A DNA stretch of 64,000 nt. It comes from Actinospica robiniae DSM 44927 (GTDB lineage Bacteria; Actinomycetota; Actinomycetes; Streptomycetales; Catenulisporaceae). Below are positions 16,955 to 23,540 of the stretch, piece by piece. The notes under the pieces were generated by a model that was given only the letters and a program-made list of their open reading frames with translations, searched no databases and was not told the origin of the DNA. The translations under genes and the position numbers were made by a program. The stretch is from NCBI RefSeq assembly GCF_000504285.1, contig NZ_KI632511.1, forward strand, positions 7,670,154 through 7,734,153, written 5' to 3'. Positions within the stretch are counted from its first letter, which is position 1; every line of letters starts with the position of its first letter.

Positions 16955-17995
16955 ATGAAGCTGGGCGTGAACCTCGGATACTGGGGCGCCGGCAACGACG
17001 CCGACAACCTGGCCCTGGCCCGCGAGGCCGACCGCCTCGGCTACGCGGTCTGCTGGGCCGCCGAGGCCTACGGCTCGGACGCGGCCACCGTTCTGGCCTG
17101 GGTGGCCGCGCAGACCGAGCGGATCGACGTCGGCTCGGCCGTCTTCCAGATCCCGGCGCGCACCCCGGCGATGACCGCGATGACCGCCGCCACCCTCGAC
17201 TCCCTCTCCGGCGGCCGGTTCCGGCTCGGCCTCGGCGTGTCCGGGCCGCAGGTGTCCGAGGGCTGGCACGGCGTGCGCTTCCAGGCCCCGCTCGGCCGCA
17301 CCCGCGAGTACGTCGAGATCGTCGACCTCGCGCTCTCCCGCAAGCGTCTGGAGTATCAGGGCAAGCACTTCCAGCTGCCGCTGCCGGACGGGCCCGGCAA
17401 GAAGATCCAGCTGACGGTGCATCCGGTGCGCGAGCGCATCCCGGTCTACCTCGCCGCGGTCGGCCCGAAGAACCTGGAACTCGCGGGCGAGATCGCCGAC
17501 GGCTGGCTGGCCGTGTTCTACAGCCCGGCCTTCGCGCAAGAGCAGTTGGCCGCGATCGAGGCCGGGCGCGCCAAGGCCGGGAAGACCATGACAGGGTTCG
17601 ACGTCGTGCCCACCGTCCCGATCGTGGTGGAGGAGGACGTGGAGCGCGCCGCCGAACTCGTGCGCTGGTACGCCGCGCTCTACATCGGCGGCATGGGCAG
17701 CCGGGAGCAGAACTTCTACAACCAGCTCGCCTGCCGGATGGGCTTCGAGCGCGAGGCGGAGCAGGTGCAGGAGCTCTACCTGGCCCGGGAGCACCGCAAC
17801 GCCGCCGCCGCGGTGCCGCTCGAGTTCGTCGACGCCACCAGCCTGCTCGGCTCCCCGGAGCGGATCGCCCGGCGGATGAAGGAGTTCGAGGCCGCCGGGG
17901 TGACCACGCTGAGCCTGAGTCCGTTCGCCGCCACCCTGGACGAGCGCCTGGCCGCCCTGGGCACGGCGGCACGCCTGGTTGACGCCGAGGCGTAA
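16955..17995 (+). CDS. LLM class F420-dependent oxidoreductase
   Basis: 346-residue luciferase-like monooxygenase-fold protein (MKLGVNLGYWG, then LDSLSGGRFRLGLGVSGPQVSEGWHG). This subgroup in actinobacteria generally uses coenzyme F420 rather than FMN; that is known of the family and not shown here. The start is fixed by an AAAGGAG at 16938-16944, 10 bp before the ATG. The stop TAA lies inside the -10 box (TAATCT, 17993-17998) of the next gene. Confidence 0.9.
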   Translation: MKLGVNLGYWGAGNDADNLALAREADRLGYAVCWAAEAYGSDAATVLAWVAAQTERIDVGSAVFQIPARTPAMTAMTAATLDSLSGGRFRLGLGVSGPQVSEGWHGVRFQAPLGRTREYVEIVDLALSRKRLEYQGKHFQLPLPDGPGKKIQLTVHPVRERIPVYLAAVGPKNLELAGEIADGWLAVFYSPAFAQEQLAAIEAGRAKAGKTMTGFDVVPTVPIVVEEDVERAAELVRWYAALYIGGMGSREQNFYNQLACRMGFEREAEQVQELYLAREHRNAAAAVPLEFVDATSLLGSPERIARRMKEFEAAGVTTLSLSPFAATLDERLAALGTAARLVDAEA

Positions 17996-17998
17996 TCT
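17993..17998 (+). promoter_or_regulatory. -10 box for leaderless histidine phosphatase gene
   Basis: TAATCT ends 7 nt before the ATG at 18006 and no Shine-Dalgarno is present, so the phosphatase gene probably has its own leaderless promoter overlapping the upstream stop codon. Confidence 0.45.
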
Positions 17999-18005
17999 GG
18001 GTTCG

Positions 18006-18695
18006 ATGACCACTGTCCTGCTCATTCGACACGGGCGCTCCACCGCGAACACGGCGGGCGTCCTGGCCGGGCGCACGCCGGGGATCGACCTCGACGAGCT
18101 CGGCCGGGACCAGGCCGTGCGCCTCGCCGCCCGCCTGGCCGAGGTCCCGCTCGACGCCGTGGTGAGCAGCCCGCTCGAGCGCACCCGGCAGACCGCGCAG
18201 CCGCTGCTGGCCGCCCGCCCCGAGACGCTGTTCGAGCTCGACGAGCGCTTCACCGAGTGCGACTACGGCAGCTGGTCCGGCCGGACCCTGAAGTCCCTGG
18301 CCGAGGAGCCGCTGTGGCGCACCGTGCAGGCGCACCCGGCCGCCGCGTCCTTCCCGGACGGCGAGTCGCTGGCGGCGGTCTCGGCCCGGGCCGTGGCCGC
18401 GGTGCGCTCCTGGAACGCCAAGCTCGGCGAGCACGGCGCCTACGCCGTCGTCTCGCACGGCGACGTGATCAAGGCGATCGCGGCCGACGCCCTCGGCATG
18501 CACCTGGACCTGTTCCAGCGGGTGCAGATCGACCCGTGCTCGCTGACCGTGGTGCGCTACCACGGCACCCGGCCGGCCGTGCTGCGGGTCAACGACCTCG
18601 GCGGAGATGTGAGTGCCCTGATCCGCAAGGCGGCCCCGGAGGCCGGCGCGGCCGGGGACGCGCCGGTCGGCGGCGGCGCGGGAGTCGGCGGCTGA
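18006..18695 (+). CDS. histidine phosphatase family protein (MSMEG_4193-type putative phosphomutase)
   Basis: 229 residues. The phosphoglycerate-mutase-like core begins LLIRHGRST with catalytic His9; the second half carries the acid (TECDYGSWSGRTL) and the late histidine (VVSHGDVIKAI). In actinobacteria this family usually precedes DUF3090, an SCO1664-type kinase-like protein and mshC, exactly as here. The physiological substrate is unknown. The last 15 residues are Gly/Ala-rich. Confidence 0.9.
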   Translation: MTTVLLIRHGRSTANTAGVLAGRTPGIDLDELGRDQAVRLAARLAEVPLDAVVSSPLERTRQTAQPLLAARPETLFELDERFTECDYGSWSGRTLKSLAEEPLWRTVQAHPAAASFPDGESLAAVSARAVAAVRSWNAKLGEHGAYAVVSHGDVIKAIAADALGMHLDLFQRVQIDPCSLTVVRYHGTRPAVLRVNDLGGDVSALIRKAAPEAGAAGDAPVGGGAGVGG

Positions 18696-18767
18696 GATCC
18701 GTTGTACGGTAAGCCTATGGGCCGCTCGCGCGGCTGACCACGCATTCGAGTCAGGAGGCGGACGGCG

Positions 18768-19340
18768 GTGCCCCGACAGCTGTTCGTATACGACCCGCCG
18801 GAACGCTTCGTGGCCGGCACGGTGGGCGAACCCGGCAGCCGCACGTTCTATCTCCAGGCCCGCGCCGGCTCCCGGGTGACCTCGGTCGCCATGGAGAAGG
18901 AGCAGGTGGCGCTGCTGGCCACCCGGCTGGGCGAGCTGCTCGACGAGATCGTGCGGCGCACCGGCCCGGTCGCCGGCATCCCGGACTCGGTCCCGGCCGG
19001 CCTGTCCGACACCGCCCCGCTCGAGCAGCCGATCCTGGAGGAGTTCCGGGTCGGCTCGCTGGCCCTGGCCTGGGACGAGTCGCACGCCCGGATCGTGATC
19101 GAGGCCGGCGCCGTCACCGACGTGGAGGACGCCGCCGAGCCGCTCTCCGACGATCTGTTCGCCGAGGCCCCGGACGCGCTGCGGGTCTACATCACCGGCG
19201 GCCAGGCCCGCGCCTTCGCCGCCCGGGCCGGCGCCGTGGTCGCGGCCGGCCGCCCGCCCTGCCCGCTGTGCGGCCTGCCGCTGGACCCGGAGGGCCACGT
19301 CTGTCCGCGCCAGAACGGCTACCGGCGCAGGGCTGCGTGA
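18768..19340 (+). CDS. DUF3090 family protein
   Basis: 190 residues matching the actinobacterial DUF3090 family (RQLFVYDPPERFVAGTVGEP at the start). A C-terminal treble-clef-like patch with Cys165, Cys168, His177 and Cys179 could bind zinc. The GTG start follows GGAGG at 18754-18758. Its stop overlaps the GTG of the kinase-like gene (GTGA), so the two proteins are probably made in equal amounts and may interact. Function unknown. Confidence 0.88.
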   Translation: MPRQLFVYDPPERFVAGTVGEPGSRTFYLQARAGSRVTSVAMEKEQVALLATRLGELLDEIVRRTGPVAGIPDSVPAGLSDTAPLEQPILEEFRVGSLALAWDESHARIVIEAGAVTDVEDAAEPLSDDLFAEAPDALRVYITGGQARAFAARAGAVVAAGRPPCPLCGLPLDPEGHVCPRQNGYRRRAA

Positions 19341-20173
19341 ACGAGACCGCCGGGCCGGGCGCACCGACCGGATCAGCCGACGAGGTGGCGACCGTGGACG
19401 TCGAACGCGTGCTGCGCGAGGGCGAGCTGACGGTCGAGGGCCGGCTCACCGAGGCGTCGAACGCCACCCTCTACTGCCGGGTCGAGCTCGACGGCGTCGG
19501 CTTCCCCTGCGTCTACAAGCCGGTGGCCGGGGAACGGCCGCTGCACGACTTCCCGGACGGCACCCTGGCCGCGCGCGAGCTGGCCGCGTACGCGGTGAGC
19601 GAGGCGGCCGGCTGGCACCTGGTGCCGCGCACGGTCGAGCGCGACGGCCCGTTCGGCCGCGGCATGTGCCAGCAGTGGATCGAGGAGACGGACCTGTCCG
19701 CCGCGGTCACCGTGCTGACCGATCCGCCCACGGACGTCACGCGCCAGTGGTGCCCGATCCTGGCCGTGCAGCTGTCCGACGGCTCCGACGGCCTGCTCGC
19801 CCACCACGGCGGGCCCGAGCTGCGGCGGATCGCCCTGTTCGACGCGATCGTCAACAACGCCGACCGCAAGGGCGGCCACCTGCTGCCGCTGCCGGACGGC
19901 CGGGTCCTGGGCATCGACCACGGCCTGACCTTCCACGCCGAGGACAAGCTGCGCACGCTGCTGTGGGGCTTCGCCGACGAGCCGCTCTCGGAGCAGGAGC
20001 GGGGCGAACTCGGCCGACTGCGCGAGGACGCCGGCCTCGCCGGGCAGCTGGCCGCGCTGCTCTCGCCGGGTGAGCTCGAGGCCTTCCGCGAGCGCATCGA
20101 CCAGCTGCTCGCCGAGGGCGTGCTGCCGGGCCCGGACGGCCGGATGCGCCCGGTGCCCTGGCCGCCGATCTGA
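19337..20173 (+). CDS. SCO1664 family protein (PI3/4-kinase or HipA-like fold)
   Basis: 278 residues. The N-terminal lobe has a Lys in VYKPVAGERPLHDFPDGTL that could bind ATP phosphates. The catalytic loop is FDAIVNNADRKGGH with Asp176, and the metal-binding motif is LGIDHGLTFH with Asp194. These are the key residues of phosphatidylinositol-3/4-kinase-like and HipA-like enzymes and all are intact, so it is probably an active kinase with an unknown substrate. It is translationally coupled to DUF3090 and lies 135 bp upstream of mshC. Confidence 0.85.
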   Translation: MNETAGPGAPTGSADEVATVDVERVLREGELTVEGRLTEASNATLYCRVELDGVGFPCVYKPVAGERPLHDFPDGTLAARELAAYAVSEAAGWHLVPRTVERDGPFGRGMCQQWIEETDLSAAVTVLTDPPTDVTRQWCPILAVQLSDGSDGLLAHHGGPELRRIALFDAIVNNADRKGGHLLPLPDGRVLGIDHGLTFHAEDKLRTLLWGFADEPLSEQERGELGRLREDAGLAGQLAALLSPGELEAFRERIDQLLAEGVLPGPDGRMRPVPWPPI

Positions 20174-20295
20174 TCCGTCCGGCTCCGCGCCGTGCGGCGG
20201 CAGCCGTGCCGATCCGCGGTTGCCCCGCCGATCCGCGCCCGGCCGCGCCATGCCCCGCCCGTCCGCCTCGGTACGTGCGGCGGGCGCCCAGCCGT

Positions 20296-20301
20296 TAGGG
20301 T
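20296..20301 (+). promoter_or_regulatory. -10 box for leaderless mshC
   Basis: TAGGGT ends 7 nt before the ATG at 20309, which sets that ATG rather than the one at 20303 as the start and implies a leaderless mRNA. The rest of the 135-bp gap (20174-20308) shows no other clear signal. Confidence 0.5.
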
Positions 20302-20308
20302 GATGACC

Positions 20309-21556
20309 ATGGATGCCTGGCCTACTTCCCACCTGCCGAAACTGCCCGGTTTCGGGCACCTGCCGCGCCTGCACGACACCTCCACCGGCGCGCTCGCCGC
20401 GACCCCGGCCCGTCCCGCCGAGGACGGCCCGGCCAGGATCTACGTGTGCGGCATCACCCCGTACGACGCCACCCACCTCGGCCACGCCGCCACCTACCTG
20501 GCCTTCGACCTGGTCCAGCGGGCCTGGCTGGACGCCGGGTACGACGTGCGTTACGTGCAGAACGTCACCGACGTCGACGATCCGCTGCTCGAGCGGGCCG
20601 AGCGCGACCAGGACGACTGGCAGGTGCTCGCGATGCGCGAGACGGCGCTGTTCCGCGAGGACATGACGGCGCTGCGGATCCTGCCGCCGTACCGCTACAT
20701 CGGCGCCGTCGAGTCGATCCCGCTGGTGGTGGCGCTGGTGCAGCGGCTGCTCGAGTCCGGCGCGGCCTACCGGGTGGACGATGACGTGTACTTCGACGTG
20801 CACGCCGAGCCCGACTTCGGCGCGGTCTCGGGGCTCGAGCCGGGTCTGCGCGAGAAGATCTTCGGCGAGCGCGGCGGCGACCCGGACCGCCCGGGCAAGC
20901 GCCACCCGCTCGACTGCCTGCTCTGGCAGGCCAAGCGGCCCGGCGAGCCGTCCTGGGCCACGCCGCTGGGGGAGGGCCGGCCCGGCTGGCACATCGAGTG
21001 CGCCGCGATCGCCCTCGAGTACCTCGGCAGCGGCATCGACGTGCAGGGCGGCGGCAGCGACCTGGCCTTCCCGCACCACGAGATGGGCGCGGCCGAGGCC
21101 CAGGTCGTCACCGGCGAGCGGCCCTTCGCGCACACCTACGTGCACGCCGGGATGGTCGGGCTGGACGGCGAGAAGATGTCGAAGTCGCGCGGCAACCTGG
21201 TGTTCGTCTCCAAGCTGCGCGCGGCCGGGCACGACCCGATGGCGATCCGGCTGGCGCTGCTCGCCCACCACTACCGCAACGACTGGGAGTGGACCGGGCA
21301 GGACCTCGAGCGGGCCGAGGCCCGGCTCGAGCGCTGGCGCCGCGCGGTGAGCCGGCCGGACGCGCCGTCCGCCGACGCCCTGCTCGAGCAGCTGCGCGAG
21401 CGCCTCGCCGACGATCTCGACGCGCCCGGCGCGCTGGCCGCGATGGACGTCTGGGCCGAGTCCGCGCTCGCCGCCCCGGTCGGCGAGGCCTTCGACAGCG
21501 GCGCGCCGGGGCTGGCCGCGCGCGCGGTGGACGCCCTGCTCGGCGTCGCGCTCTGA
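20309..21556 (+). CDS. mshC: cysteine--1-D-myo-inosityl 2-amino-2-deoxy-alpha-D-glucopyranoside ligase
   Basis: 415 residues. MshC joins cysteine to GlcN-inositol using ATP, the third catalytic step of mycothiol synthesis, in the cytosol. It is a class I cysteinyl-tRNA-synthetase-like enzyme. The zinc Cys and the HIGH-like motif are in [20 protein letters not shown], the KMSKS loop is [10 protein letters not shown], and the zinc-site WHIECAA and [12 protein letters not shown] segments follow. The tRNA-binding domain is absent, as expected for MshC. mshC and its three upstream neighbours form a block conserved in actinobacteria. A hairpin terminator follows. Confidence 0.96.
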
Positions 21557-21569
21557 CGCTCTCCGGCAC

Positions 21570-21601
21570 CCGGCGCCGCGGCCCGTCCGCCGTGGCGCCG
21601 G
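21570..21601 (+). terminator. hairpin terminator after mshC
   Basis: 12-bp G/C-rich stem with one G-U wobble (21570-21581 with 21590-21601) and an 8-nt loop, 13 bp after the mshC stop. No T tract. Confidence 0.65.
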
Positions 21602-21615
21602 AAACCACCCCCCTG

Positions 21616-21638
21616 AATACGCATCTCAAATACCAGTT
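21616..21638. promoter_or_regulatory. NsrR-type operator upstream of nsrR
   Basis: A 23-bp imperfect dyad begins AATACGCATCT and ends ATACCAGTT, 15 bp before the nsrR start. It has the 11-1-11 form described for Streptomyces NsrR operators and closely resembles the site upstream of hmp at 22279-22301. This suggests autoregulation by NsrR when its cluster is intact and release on nitric oxide. Confidence 0.75.
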
Positions 21639-21653
21639 TGATAGCGTCATCGC

Positions 21654-22097
21654 GTGAGGTTGACGAAGTTCACCGACTTGTCGCTGCGGGCCGTGATGCG
21701 CCTCGCCGTGGCGTCGCAGGACGCGTTGACCACGCGCGAGGTCTCCGAGGTCATGGACGTGCCCTACACGCACATGGCCAAGGCGATCAGCAGGCTGCAG
21801 CACCTGGGCGTCGTGCGCACCCGGCGCGGCCGCGGCGGCGGGCTCGAGCTCACCGCCCTCGGCCGCCAGGCGACCGTGGGCTGGCTGGTCCGGCAGCTCG
21901 AAGGGGACGAGGAAGTGGTGGCCTGCGAAGGCGACCCGCCGTGTCCGCTGCGGGCCGCCTGCCGGCTGCGCGGCGCGCTGCGCGAGGCGCAGCGGGCCTT
22001 CTACGCCGAACTCGACCGGATCACCGTGGCCGACCTGGTGGCCTCGCCCACCGGTCCCGCCCTGGTGGGCCTGGGCGGAACACGCCGGTCCGCCTGA
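21654..22097 (+). CDS. nsrR: Rrf2 family transcriptional regulator, NsrR-type nitric oxide sensor
   Basis: 147 residues. The N-terminal winged helix has an Rrf2 recognition helix (REVSEVMDVPYTHMAKAISRL) and the wing TRRGRGGGLEL. Three cysteines, Cys91, Cys97 and Cys103, with x5 and x5 spacing match the ligands of the [4Fe-4S] cluster in Streptomyces NsrR. Nitric oxide destroys the cluster and relieves repression of hmp. The flavohaemoglobin gene lies directly downstream and both promoters carry the same type of operator, supporting NsrR over other Rrf2 members. The start is the GTG giving MRLTKF. Confidence 0.93.
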   Translation: MRLTKFTDLSLRAVMRLAVASQDALTTREVSEVMDVPYTHMAKAISRLQHLGVVRTRRGRGGGLELTALGRQATVGWLVRQLEGDEEVVACEGDPPCPLRAACRLRGALREAQRAFYAELDRITVADLVASPTGPALVGLGGTRRSA

Positions 22098-22331: not shown

Positions 22332-23540
22332 ATGGCTCTCACGCTCTCCGAACAGTCCGCCCCGGTCATCCGGGCCACCCTGCCCGCCGTCGGCGCGGCC
22401 GTGGAGACCATCACCGACCTGTTCTACCGGAAGCTGTTCGAGGCCCACCCGGACCTGCTCACCGACCTGTTCAACCGGGGCAACCAGGCCAACGGCGAGC
22501 AGCGCCGGGCGCTGGCCGGAGCGGTGGCCGGCTTCGCGGCGGCGCTGGTGAACAACCCGGAGACGCCGCCGGCGGCGATGCTCTCGCGGATCGCGCACAA
22601 GCACGTCTCCCTCGGCATCTCCGCCGAGCAGTACAAGATCGTGCACCGGCACCTGTTCGCCGCCATCGGCGAGGTGCTCGGCGCGGCCGTCACCCCCGAG
22701 GTCGCCGCCGCCTGGGACGAGGTCTACTGGCTGATGGCCGAGACCCTGATCGGGCTCGAGGCCGGGCTCTACCAGAGCGCCGGCGTCGCCGAGGGCGAGG
22801 TCTGGCAGAGCATGGAGATCGCCGAGCGGCTGGAGCAGACGCCGGACGCGATCACGCTCGTGCTGCGCCGTCCCGACGGCGCGCCGGCCGGCCCGTTCCG
22901 CCCCGGCCAGTACATCAGCGTCCAGATCCCGCTGCCCGACGGCGCCCGCCAGATCCGCCAGTACAGCCTCTCGGCCGCGCCAGGGCGGGATGACTGGCGG
23001 ATCACGGTCAAGCGGGTGCCGGCCGAGGCCGCCGCTCCCGCCGGCGAGGTCTCCGCGCACCTGCACGCGCACGCCCGCCCCGGCGACCTGCTCACCGTCT
23101 CCGTCCCCGGCGGCGACCTGGTGCTGGCCGAGGGCGACGGCCCGGTGCTACTGGCCTCCGCCGGGATCGGCGTCACCCCGATGCTGGCGATGCTCTACCA
23201 CCTGGCCGAGACCGGCTCGGCCCGCGCCGTCACCGTGCTGCACGCCGACCGCACCCCGGCCGACCACGCGCACGAAGCCGACCAGCGTCGCCTCGTCGCC
23301 GCCCTCCCCGGCGCCGACCTGCGCCTCTGGTACGAAACCGCCCCCGACGGCCTGCCCGAGGGCGCCGAACTCGGCCGCGCCGACCTCGCCGCGATCGACG
23401 TGCCCGAAGGCGTCACCGCCTACCTCTGCGGCCCGCTGCCCTTCATGCGCGCCGTCCGGGCCGGCCTGATCGAGCGCGGAGTGCCCGCCGAGTCCATCCA
23501 CTACGAGGTCTTCGGCCCCGACCTCTGGCTCGGCAACTGA
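22332..23540 (+). CDS. hmp: flavohaemoprotein, nitric oxide dioxygenase
   Basis: 402 residues; oxidises nitric oxide to nitrate with O2 and NAD(P)H in the cytosol. Residues 1-140 are the globin domain, with distal Tyr32 in the FYRKLF segment and proximal His91 in AHKHVSLG. The FAD-binding barrel follows with RQYSLS near 210, then the NAD domain with SAGIGVTPMLAM, CGPLPFM and the C-terminal VFGPD. The start ATG follows AAGGAG at good spacing. An NsrR-type operator lies in the promoter, so it is probably induced by nitrosative stress. The 3' end meets a shared hairpin. Confidence 0.97.
   Translation: MALTLSEQSAPVIRATLPAVGAAVETITDLFYRKLFEAHPDLLTDLFNRGNQANGEQRRALAGAVAGFAAALVNNPETPPAAMLSRIAHKHVSLGISAEQYKIVHRHLFAAIGEVLGAAVTPEVAAAWDEVYWLMAETLIGLEAGLYQSAGVAEGEVWQSMEIAERLEQTPDAITLVLRRPDGAPAGPFRPGQYISVQIPLPDGARQIRQYSLSAAPGRDDWRITVKRVPAEAAAPAGEVSAHLHAHARPGDLLTVSVPGGDLVLAEGDGPVLLASAGIGVTPMLAMLYHLAETGSARAVTVLHADRTPADHAHEADQRRLVAALPGADLRLWYETAPDGLPEGAELGRADLAAIDVPEGVTAYLCGPLPFMRAVRAGLIERGVPAESIHYEVFGPDLWLGN

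Follow-up and report, generated by a model that had tools for sequence, protein, structure and literature searches.

Gene content of the locus

The window analysed, a stretch of 64,000 nucleotides corresponding to bases 7670154–7734153 of the single-contig 9.9 Mb genome of Actinospica robiniae DSM 44927, carries a compact group of three genes (hereafter the trio) coding in turn for a histidine phosphatase (HP), a DUF3090 protein and a PI3/4-kinase-like protein (hereafter the kinase), with the mycothiol gene mshC next in line. The HP gene (18006–18695, + strand, ATG start, 229 amino acids) belongs to the MSMEG_4193/Rv2135c family, its product scoring 296.4 bits against TIGR03848 (cut-off 203.85) and 177 bits against PF00300. 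The DUF3090 gene (18768–19340, + strand, GTG start, 190 amino acids) scored 243 bits against TIGR03847 (cut-off 117.25) and 221.7 bits against PF11290 (cut-off 27). The kinase gene (19337–20173, + strand, GTG start, 278 amino acids), a member of the SCO1664 family with two Catenulispora as its best named relatives, scored 320.7 bits against TIGR03843 (curated cut-off 172.4). The mshC gene, coding for the cysteine:GlcN-inositol ligase of mycothiol synthesis (20303 or 20309–21556, + strand), scored 628 bits against TIGR03447 (cut-off 485), and is judged here to be a neighbour lying outside the module. All four genes were thus confirmed where the original prediction had placed them, with family scores far above the curated cut-offs, as was the coupling of DUF3090 to the kinase by a GTGA in which the stop codon of the former overlaps the start codon of the latter. 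A scan of positions 17700–21700 for promoters and terminators turned up none.

The proteins of the window are clear members of the NCBIfam families TIGR03848, TIGR03847 and TIGR03843, for which the catalogue lists functions as unknown or putative (the HP family under the name 'putative phosphomutase') and for which its notes reportedly speak of a three-gene system; the fold predictions, second-phylum spread, separate-loss patterns and MshC test reported below are new beyond that catalogue. The open-licence PubMed Central literature yielded no study of what DUF3090 or the kinase does, to which extent the earlier statement that no role is known holds. A mycothiol guess for the kinase has already been printed, a 2013 review describing SCO1664 as always lying in close linkage with mshC and perhaps a member of the mycothiol network (PMC4255298). 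Other sources list DUF3090 once as a putative metal-binding protein (PMC9425974), give Rv2134c of BCG a score of −1.42 in a transposon screen with rifampicin below the minimum inhibitory concentration (PMC11329110), place MSMEG_4192 (1.49) among the mutants over-represented after dibucaine in a further transposon screen (PMC10127668), and include MSMEG_4192 in a table of the ClpC1 interactome (PMC10433963); from gene order we infer that Rv2134c and MSMEG_4192 are DUF3090 genes.

Predicted folds and retained residues

Residue conservation was recorded across the window sequence plus near-relative, phylum and second-phylum sequences, aligned to models of the near set. The kinase had no relative in the PDB detectable by sequence (best E 0.42), and the PF00454 (PI3_PI4_kinase) match, at 17.1 bits over residues 163–208, fell under the gathering cut-off of 27.1. 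When a structure model built from 29 sequences (predicted local distance difference test, pLDDT, 81.0; predicted template modelling score, pTM, 0.81) was searched with Foldseek, the Fam20 kinases came top (E 2.6e-6) with PI4K II beta next, while VIA-align matched PI4K II alpha/beta at Z 15.8 over ~230 residues (root-mean-square deviation, rmsd, 3.9–4.2; 17–19% identity), Fam20 at 14.0, CtkA at 11.8 and HipT/HipA at 8–10.6. K61 and E81 were kept in 161/161 sequences, D169, N174, D176, R177, K178 and D194 in 160/161, and H181 in 159/161. On the basis of the whole-domain match and the presence of the ATP lysine, catalytic aspartate and metal aspartate, the TIGR03843 protein is predicted to have a PI4K-II-like kinase fold, shared in extent and in the layout of these residues with PI4K2A and PI4K2B according to motif equivalences that we take to hold between the two families. 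The likeness has its limits, identity being low and the kinase having a D-H-G motif (His in 151/161, Asn in 8/161) at the His position of which PI4K-II presumably has Asn, and lipid activity of the kinase is putative. Fam20, CtkA and HipA/HipT belong to the same fold class, and differ from the kinase in that identity is just 7–16% and that its partners are DUF3090 and the HP, not an antitoxin. The original description of an intact PI3/4-kinase-like protein therefore stands for the modelled fold and the catalytic residues, and does not extend to the Pfam assignment, which lies below its cut-off.

For DUF3090, an AlphaFold2 model built from 35 sequences (pLDDT 82.5, pTM 0.75) indicated a predicted PUR-like core at residues ~9–162, followed by a C-terminal CxxC...HxC zinc patch (C165, C168, H177, C179) modelled with low confidence. 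With VIA, repeats I–II of human PURA aligned at Z 9.9 over 113 residues (rmsd 3.2, 9% identity) and fly Pur-alpha at Z 9.2, the range for PUR proteins being 9.1–9.9; the top non-PUR match, a DUF155 protein, reached Z 6.3, with Whirly and MRP1/2 at ~5. Sequence comparison gave no match of a PUR family model to DUF3090, a Pfam scan at E ≤1 returning DUF3090 alone, and no relative in the PDB, where the best hit (E 0.018, a cytochrome b562 entry) was taken as chance. The structural comparison nevertheless suggests that DUF3090 has the PUR repeat I–II fold seen in the nucleic-acid-binding protein Pur-alpha; Bpur of Borrelia is reportedly a PUR protein in bacteria. DUF3090 departs from the PUR proteins in its 8–12% identity, in the absence of a Pfam PUR match and in its added zinc knuckle, and nucleic-acid binding by it is putative. 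The literature searched on these families brought up no prior description of DUF3090 as PUR-like, the phrase itself not having been directly searched. After one near-set row had been dropped for length, R25, E43, K44, R162, C165, C168 and C179 were found to be kept in 153/153 sequences, and H177 in 151/153.

The HP scored above the TIGR03848 cut-off and has the complete RHG..R..E..H active site of the MSMEG_4193 family, R59 and H151 being kept in 135/135 sequences, and R8, H9 and E84 in 134/135. Its nearest solved relative is phosphoserine phosphatase 1 (4ij5, E 5e-18). The family member Rv2135c is described as an acid phosphatase that forms tetramers, lacks mutase activity, acts poorly or not at all on the tested sugar phosphates, and has been detected in membrane fractions (PMC3866925).

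Distribution of the trio and its separation from mshC

Among 149 Actinomycetota genomes, the kinase was present in 68 (65 above cut-off) and DUF3090 in an identical list of 68 (62 above cut-off), while the HP scored above cut-off in 55. MshC was above cut-off in 12/149, exactly the 12 genomes of the window's own class in the sample. A weaker MshC-like gene (368–446 bits) was present in 16 genomes of other classes, the limits of 368 bits here and 356 bits below having been set by eye or by a chosen E-value, not taken from a curated cut-off. The trio was found in 15 of these 16 genomes and the two were neighbours in 0/15; counted from the trio, 15/56 other-class trio genomes carried the MshC-like gene versus 1/81 others (p 5e-6, ancestry uncorrected), leaving 41/56 without such a gene at or above 368 bits. 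The 68 trio genomes thus included 12 with MshC above cut-off and 15 more with a mid-scoring gene, and the trio was not confined to MshC carriers. A MshA-like gene (E ≤1e-60) was present in 24/24 chosen other-class genomes, a check almost devoid of a negative set since 23 of those chosen have the trio.

HP, DUF3090 and kinase lay in that order, on one strand and within 3 kb, at 39/40 fetched Actinomycetota loci, which represented 39 of the 68 trio genomes plus a second copy in one of them (G008). That second copy was the fortieth locus, an HP–kinase pair without DUF3090 (L132, G008:C17:152948–154262) in a genome that also holds a complete trio. The earlier claim that the order is conserved in actinobacteria is borne out phylum-wide for the trio, and has to be narrowed for mshC, whose adjacency was seen in the window's own class only.

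The trio also extends into a second phylum, that of the Chloroflexi metagenome-assembled genome L102, in which 84/151 genomes have the kinase (82 above cut-off). MshC was above cut-off in 0/151 of these genomes, and a MshC-like gene of at least 356 bits was present in 61/151, the kinase occurring in 38/61 of its carriers versus 46/90 others (odds ratio 1.6, p 0.19). The gene concerned, CysS-like and scoring 356–409 bits to the MshC model, below cut-off, is possibly an undescribed ligase relative. From the 84 loci, 40 were fetched, picked by score and length of contig: 18 had HP, DUF3090 and kinase, 16 had DUF3090 and kinase, and 6 had the kinase alone within 3 kb. DUF3090 followed the kinase at one of the 16 (L202), and at one of those lacking the HP (L188) a more distant histidine phosphatase lay right behind the kinase.

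Within the window's own class (n = 148) the kinase was found in 140 genomes and MshC at E ≤1e-140 in 134, with 133 having both, 7 the kinase only, 1 MshC only and 7 neither (140/148 in agreement, Fisher p 1e-7). Among the kinase-only genomes, G262 does have mshC (469 bits, missed by the 1e-140 cut) and the six others are drafts of 75–92% completeness; the MshC-only genome, the draft G218, has HP and DUF3090 beside mshC, the kinase alone being absent. Four of the seven with neither belong to one family (f80) and also lack MshA at E 1e-60. For 131 of the 133 genomes having both, rows for kinase and mshC were listed, and in 121/131 the gap between the two was <1.8 kb.

In the other 10/131 the kinase and mshC lay on different contigs or >500 kb apart, and in all ten the HP and DUF3090 adjoined the kinase. 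Three of these (G171, G241 and G252) showed a separation of ~550–570 kb, and in four more (G008, G209, G236 and G180) the genes would be at least 18 kb apart even were the contigs abutting. The remainder were less decisive: in G247 and G258 the gap is possibly only ~4 kb, and in G192 both genes lie at contig ends and may be one cut locus. Across the 7 clear partings, HP and DUF3090 stayed with the kinase in 7/7 and with mshC in 0/7, at least 14 kb fetched around each mshC containing none of the trio, and no case was seen of the HP alone beside mshC. Because the HP and DUF3090 follow the kinase where mshC lies elsewhere, the trio behaves like a unit able to leave, and proximity to mshC looks like a class-level linkage, a later neighbourhood rather than the trio's job. 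The original suggestion linking the function of the trio to MshC or mycothiol is accordingly weakened, though not closed, by a trio broader in spread than MshC, by the lack of other-class adjacency and by these partings.

Gene maps, for which genes were called by a simple program relying on GC content and each cluster was given a single Pfam scan, revealed surroundings that vary with lineage and no constant partner outside the trio. The own-class surroundings feature mshC; a further 7 loci, in one lineage, have the trio behind a histidine kinase gene and divergent from phosphate-transport-like genes, with the histidine kinase directly before the HP in 5 and a small or opposite open reading frame between them in 2. 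This setting (L114, L115, L122, L128, L139, L147 and L148) hints at phosphate-controlled expression. Parts of a ProRS/GNAT/RecO/UppS neighbourhood were present at 6 loci, others had FumC, PALP or thiolase genes, and a second-phylum group had homoserine dehydrogenase and methylmalonyl-CoA mutase nearby. A UppP (undecaprenyl-diphosphate phosphatase) gene recurred in several settings (L231, L136 and L224), often ahead of the HP: it lay directly before the HP in several relatives, within ~0.1 kb upstream of mshC in G008, where the trio lies elsewhere, and ~1 and 3 kb from mshC in G241 and G252.

Downstream of mshC, the window contains an NsrR-like Rrf2 regulator (21654–22097; NsrR 95 bits, below the cut-off of 182) and a flavohaemoprotein (22332–23540; 335 bits, below the cut-off of 432), probably a nitric-oxide detoxification pair adjoining the mycothiol gene.

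A candidate reversible-phosphorylation module

What the analysis shows directly is the identity of the genes, their fixed order and close coupling, their inheritance together, the retention of catalytic and zinc residues, and the predicted folds; these results support the original prediction in so far as it proposed a conserved and functionally unstudied group of kinase, phosphatase and zinc protein with intact active sites. The reading that we favour, at a probability of roughly one in two, is that the trio is an old, self-contained module for reversible phosphorylation. The TIGR03843 protein would be an active small kinase of the PI4K-II/Fam20/HipA fold group; DUF3090, with its PUR-like core and zinc knuckle, would be its closest partner and most likely guide or gate it as an adaptor or regulator; and the HP, an optional third part, may remove the phosphate or act on the same phosphoester pool. 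Of the possible substrates, a protein or nucleoprotein would be likeliest, followed by an inositol lipid and a small sugar or cyclitol phosphate, with a mycothiol precursor the least likely. The arginine-phosphorylation proteins McsA, McsB and YwlE, which we take to combine a kinase, a zinc-bearing activator and a phosphatase, presumably offer an analogy in manner of working only: the protein families are unrelated, and there is no evidence for phospho-arginine in the trio.

Several observations weigh against this reading. No substrate is known for the HP, DUF3090 or the kinase. Foldseek alone gave a weak result with the DUF3090 model (E 0.065, probability 0.93), and 0 Ser, Thr or Tyr positions of the window's DUF3090 reach 95% conservation, for which reason DUF3090 itself is probably not a fixed phosphorylation target. 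A Corynebacterium glutamicum control matched TIGR03843 and had no match to TIGR03847; in three genomes (G237, G248 and G269) the 19 kb fetched contain an HP–kinase pair and no DUF3090; and in Saccharopolyspora the HP lies directly behind UppP on a contig other than that of DUF3090 and the kinase, mshC being absent from the 19.5 kb fetched around it. Each part can thus be absent, as HP with kinase, HP with DUF3090 (G218) or DUF3090 with kinase (16/40 second-phylum loci), and since any of the three can be missing a strict three-part machine is excluded. MshC carriers within Actinomycetota, moreover, nearly always have the kinase, which fits a mycothiol role too. At the three loci without DUF3090 (L228, L229 and L230) mshC is next door on the opposite strand, and in one genus DUF3090 may be the only part lost.

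An inositol-lipid cycle is an alternative that we regard as unlikely: at the membrane the kinase would act on phosphatidylinositol, or on a glycosylated derivative of it, with the HP reversing and DUF3090 regulating the reaction. The kinase would then be the enzyme behind the stress-induced phosphatidylinositol 3-phosphate of mycobacteria, reportedly observed by Morita in 2010 with the kinase responsible left unidentified. The closest fold being that of PI4K type II favours such a cycle, as does inositol-1-phosphate synthase (PF01658), present in 65/68 trio genomes versus 42/81 others (p 9e-10, confounded by ancestry) and, outside the window's own class, in 53/56 versus 42/81 (p 2e-8, ancestry uncorrected); it was missing from three trio genomes (G006, G063 and G135), which together with the confounding tells against the association. 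The membrane location of Rv2135c (PMC3866925) points the same way as the kinase fold. On the other hand, that fold is shared with Fam20 (Z 14.0) and with two protein kinases, CtkA and HipT (Z 10–12), no membrane anchor was seen in the kinase, though no predictor was run, and a zinc protein with a PUR-like core would not readily be expected as the partner in a lipid reaction. A bolder version, which we regard as distinctly unlikely, would make the trio a bacterial phosphoinositide cycle deployed under stress in the two phyla in which the trio is common: the kinase would act on phosphatidylinositol, DUF3090 would link this activity to nucleic acid or the state of stress, and the HP would end the signal.

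Also rather unlikely is a role in metabolite repair or salvage, whereby kinase and HP would act in sequence, or in mutase-like fashion, on one small phosphometabolite, with DUF3090 as a ligand or metal sensor. The relationship of the HP to small-molecule phosphatases (phosphoserine phosphatase 1 and the CobC type) would suit this, as would the hint of phosphate control at the seven loci behind a histidine kinase gene; it sits poorly with the lack of mutase activity and limited action on sugar phosphates described for Rv2135c (PMC3866925), and with 22/40 second-phylum loci at which no HP family member lies beside the kinase.

Mycothiol-linked phosphorylation, including the possibility that the HP is MshA2 (GlcNAc-Ins-P to GlcNAc-Ins) with the kinase opposing it or tuning MshC, is considered very unlikely. 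We know of no gene identified for MshA2. Passages of five papers mention MshA2, whether as a step or as a gene, and give no locus for it (PMC2628429, PMC9736012, PMC10826361, PMC4360819, PMC10893638). The own-class proximity and co-occurrence of kinase and MshC, the failure of kinase, MshC and MshA alike to reach the applied thresholds in the four f80 genomes, and the enrichment of the trio among other-class carriers of a MshC-like gene (15/16 versus 41/121 without) all speak for it. The f80 co-loss can, however, be a single event in one family, a MshC-like gene of 368 bits or more is missing from most trio genomes of other classes, the second-phylum association was not significant, and insertion mutants in Rv2134c of BCG were recovered and scored (PMC11329110). 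The HP keeping to the kinase in every clear parting lowers the MshA2 reading in particular, as does its position behind UppP in Saccharopolyspora, and on the spread of the trio and this behaviour of the HP a mycothiol-specific role, MshA2 included, was set aside as very unlikely.

A HipA-like toxin–antitoxin or defence system, suggested by the presence of HipT/HipA among the fold matches, is far-fetched and was rejected as a HipBA-type system, given that the kinase in the window adjoins DUF3090 and mshC with no HipB-like helix-turn-helix neighbour, that the DUF3090 model matches PUR repeats instead of such a domain, that the kinase is near-universal in the class, and that PADLOC-DB gave 0 matches at E ≤0.01 for the three proteins, although absence from a library proves little.

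That 140/148 sampled genomes of the class carry a kinase whose active site is intact and for which no substrate is known points to a sizeable gap in our picture of bacterial signalling or metabolism. Through the fold predictions every protein of the trio gains a testable activity, and the distribution shifts the search away from mycothiol chemistry. Were the substrate to prove an inositol lipid, the kinase would be the enzyme for what is presumably an orphan bacterial phosphoinositide activity; were it a protein, the actinobacteria would have one more kind of reversible phosphorylation.

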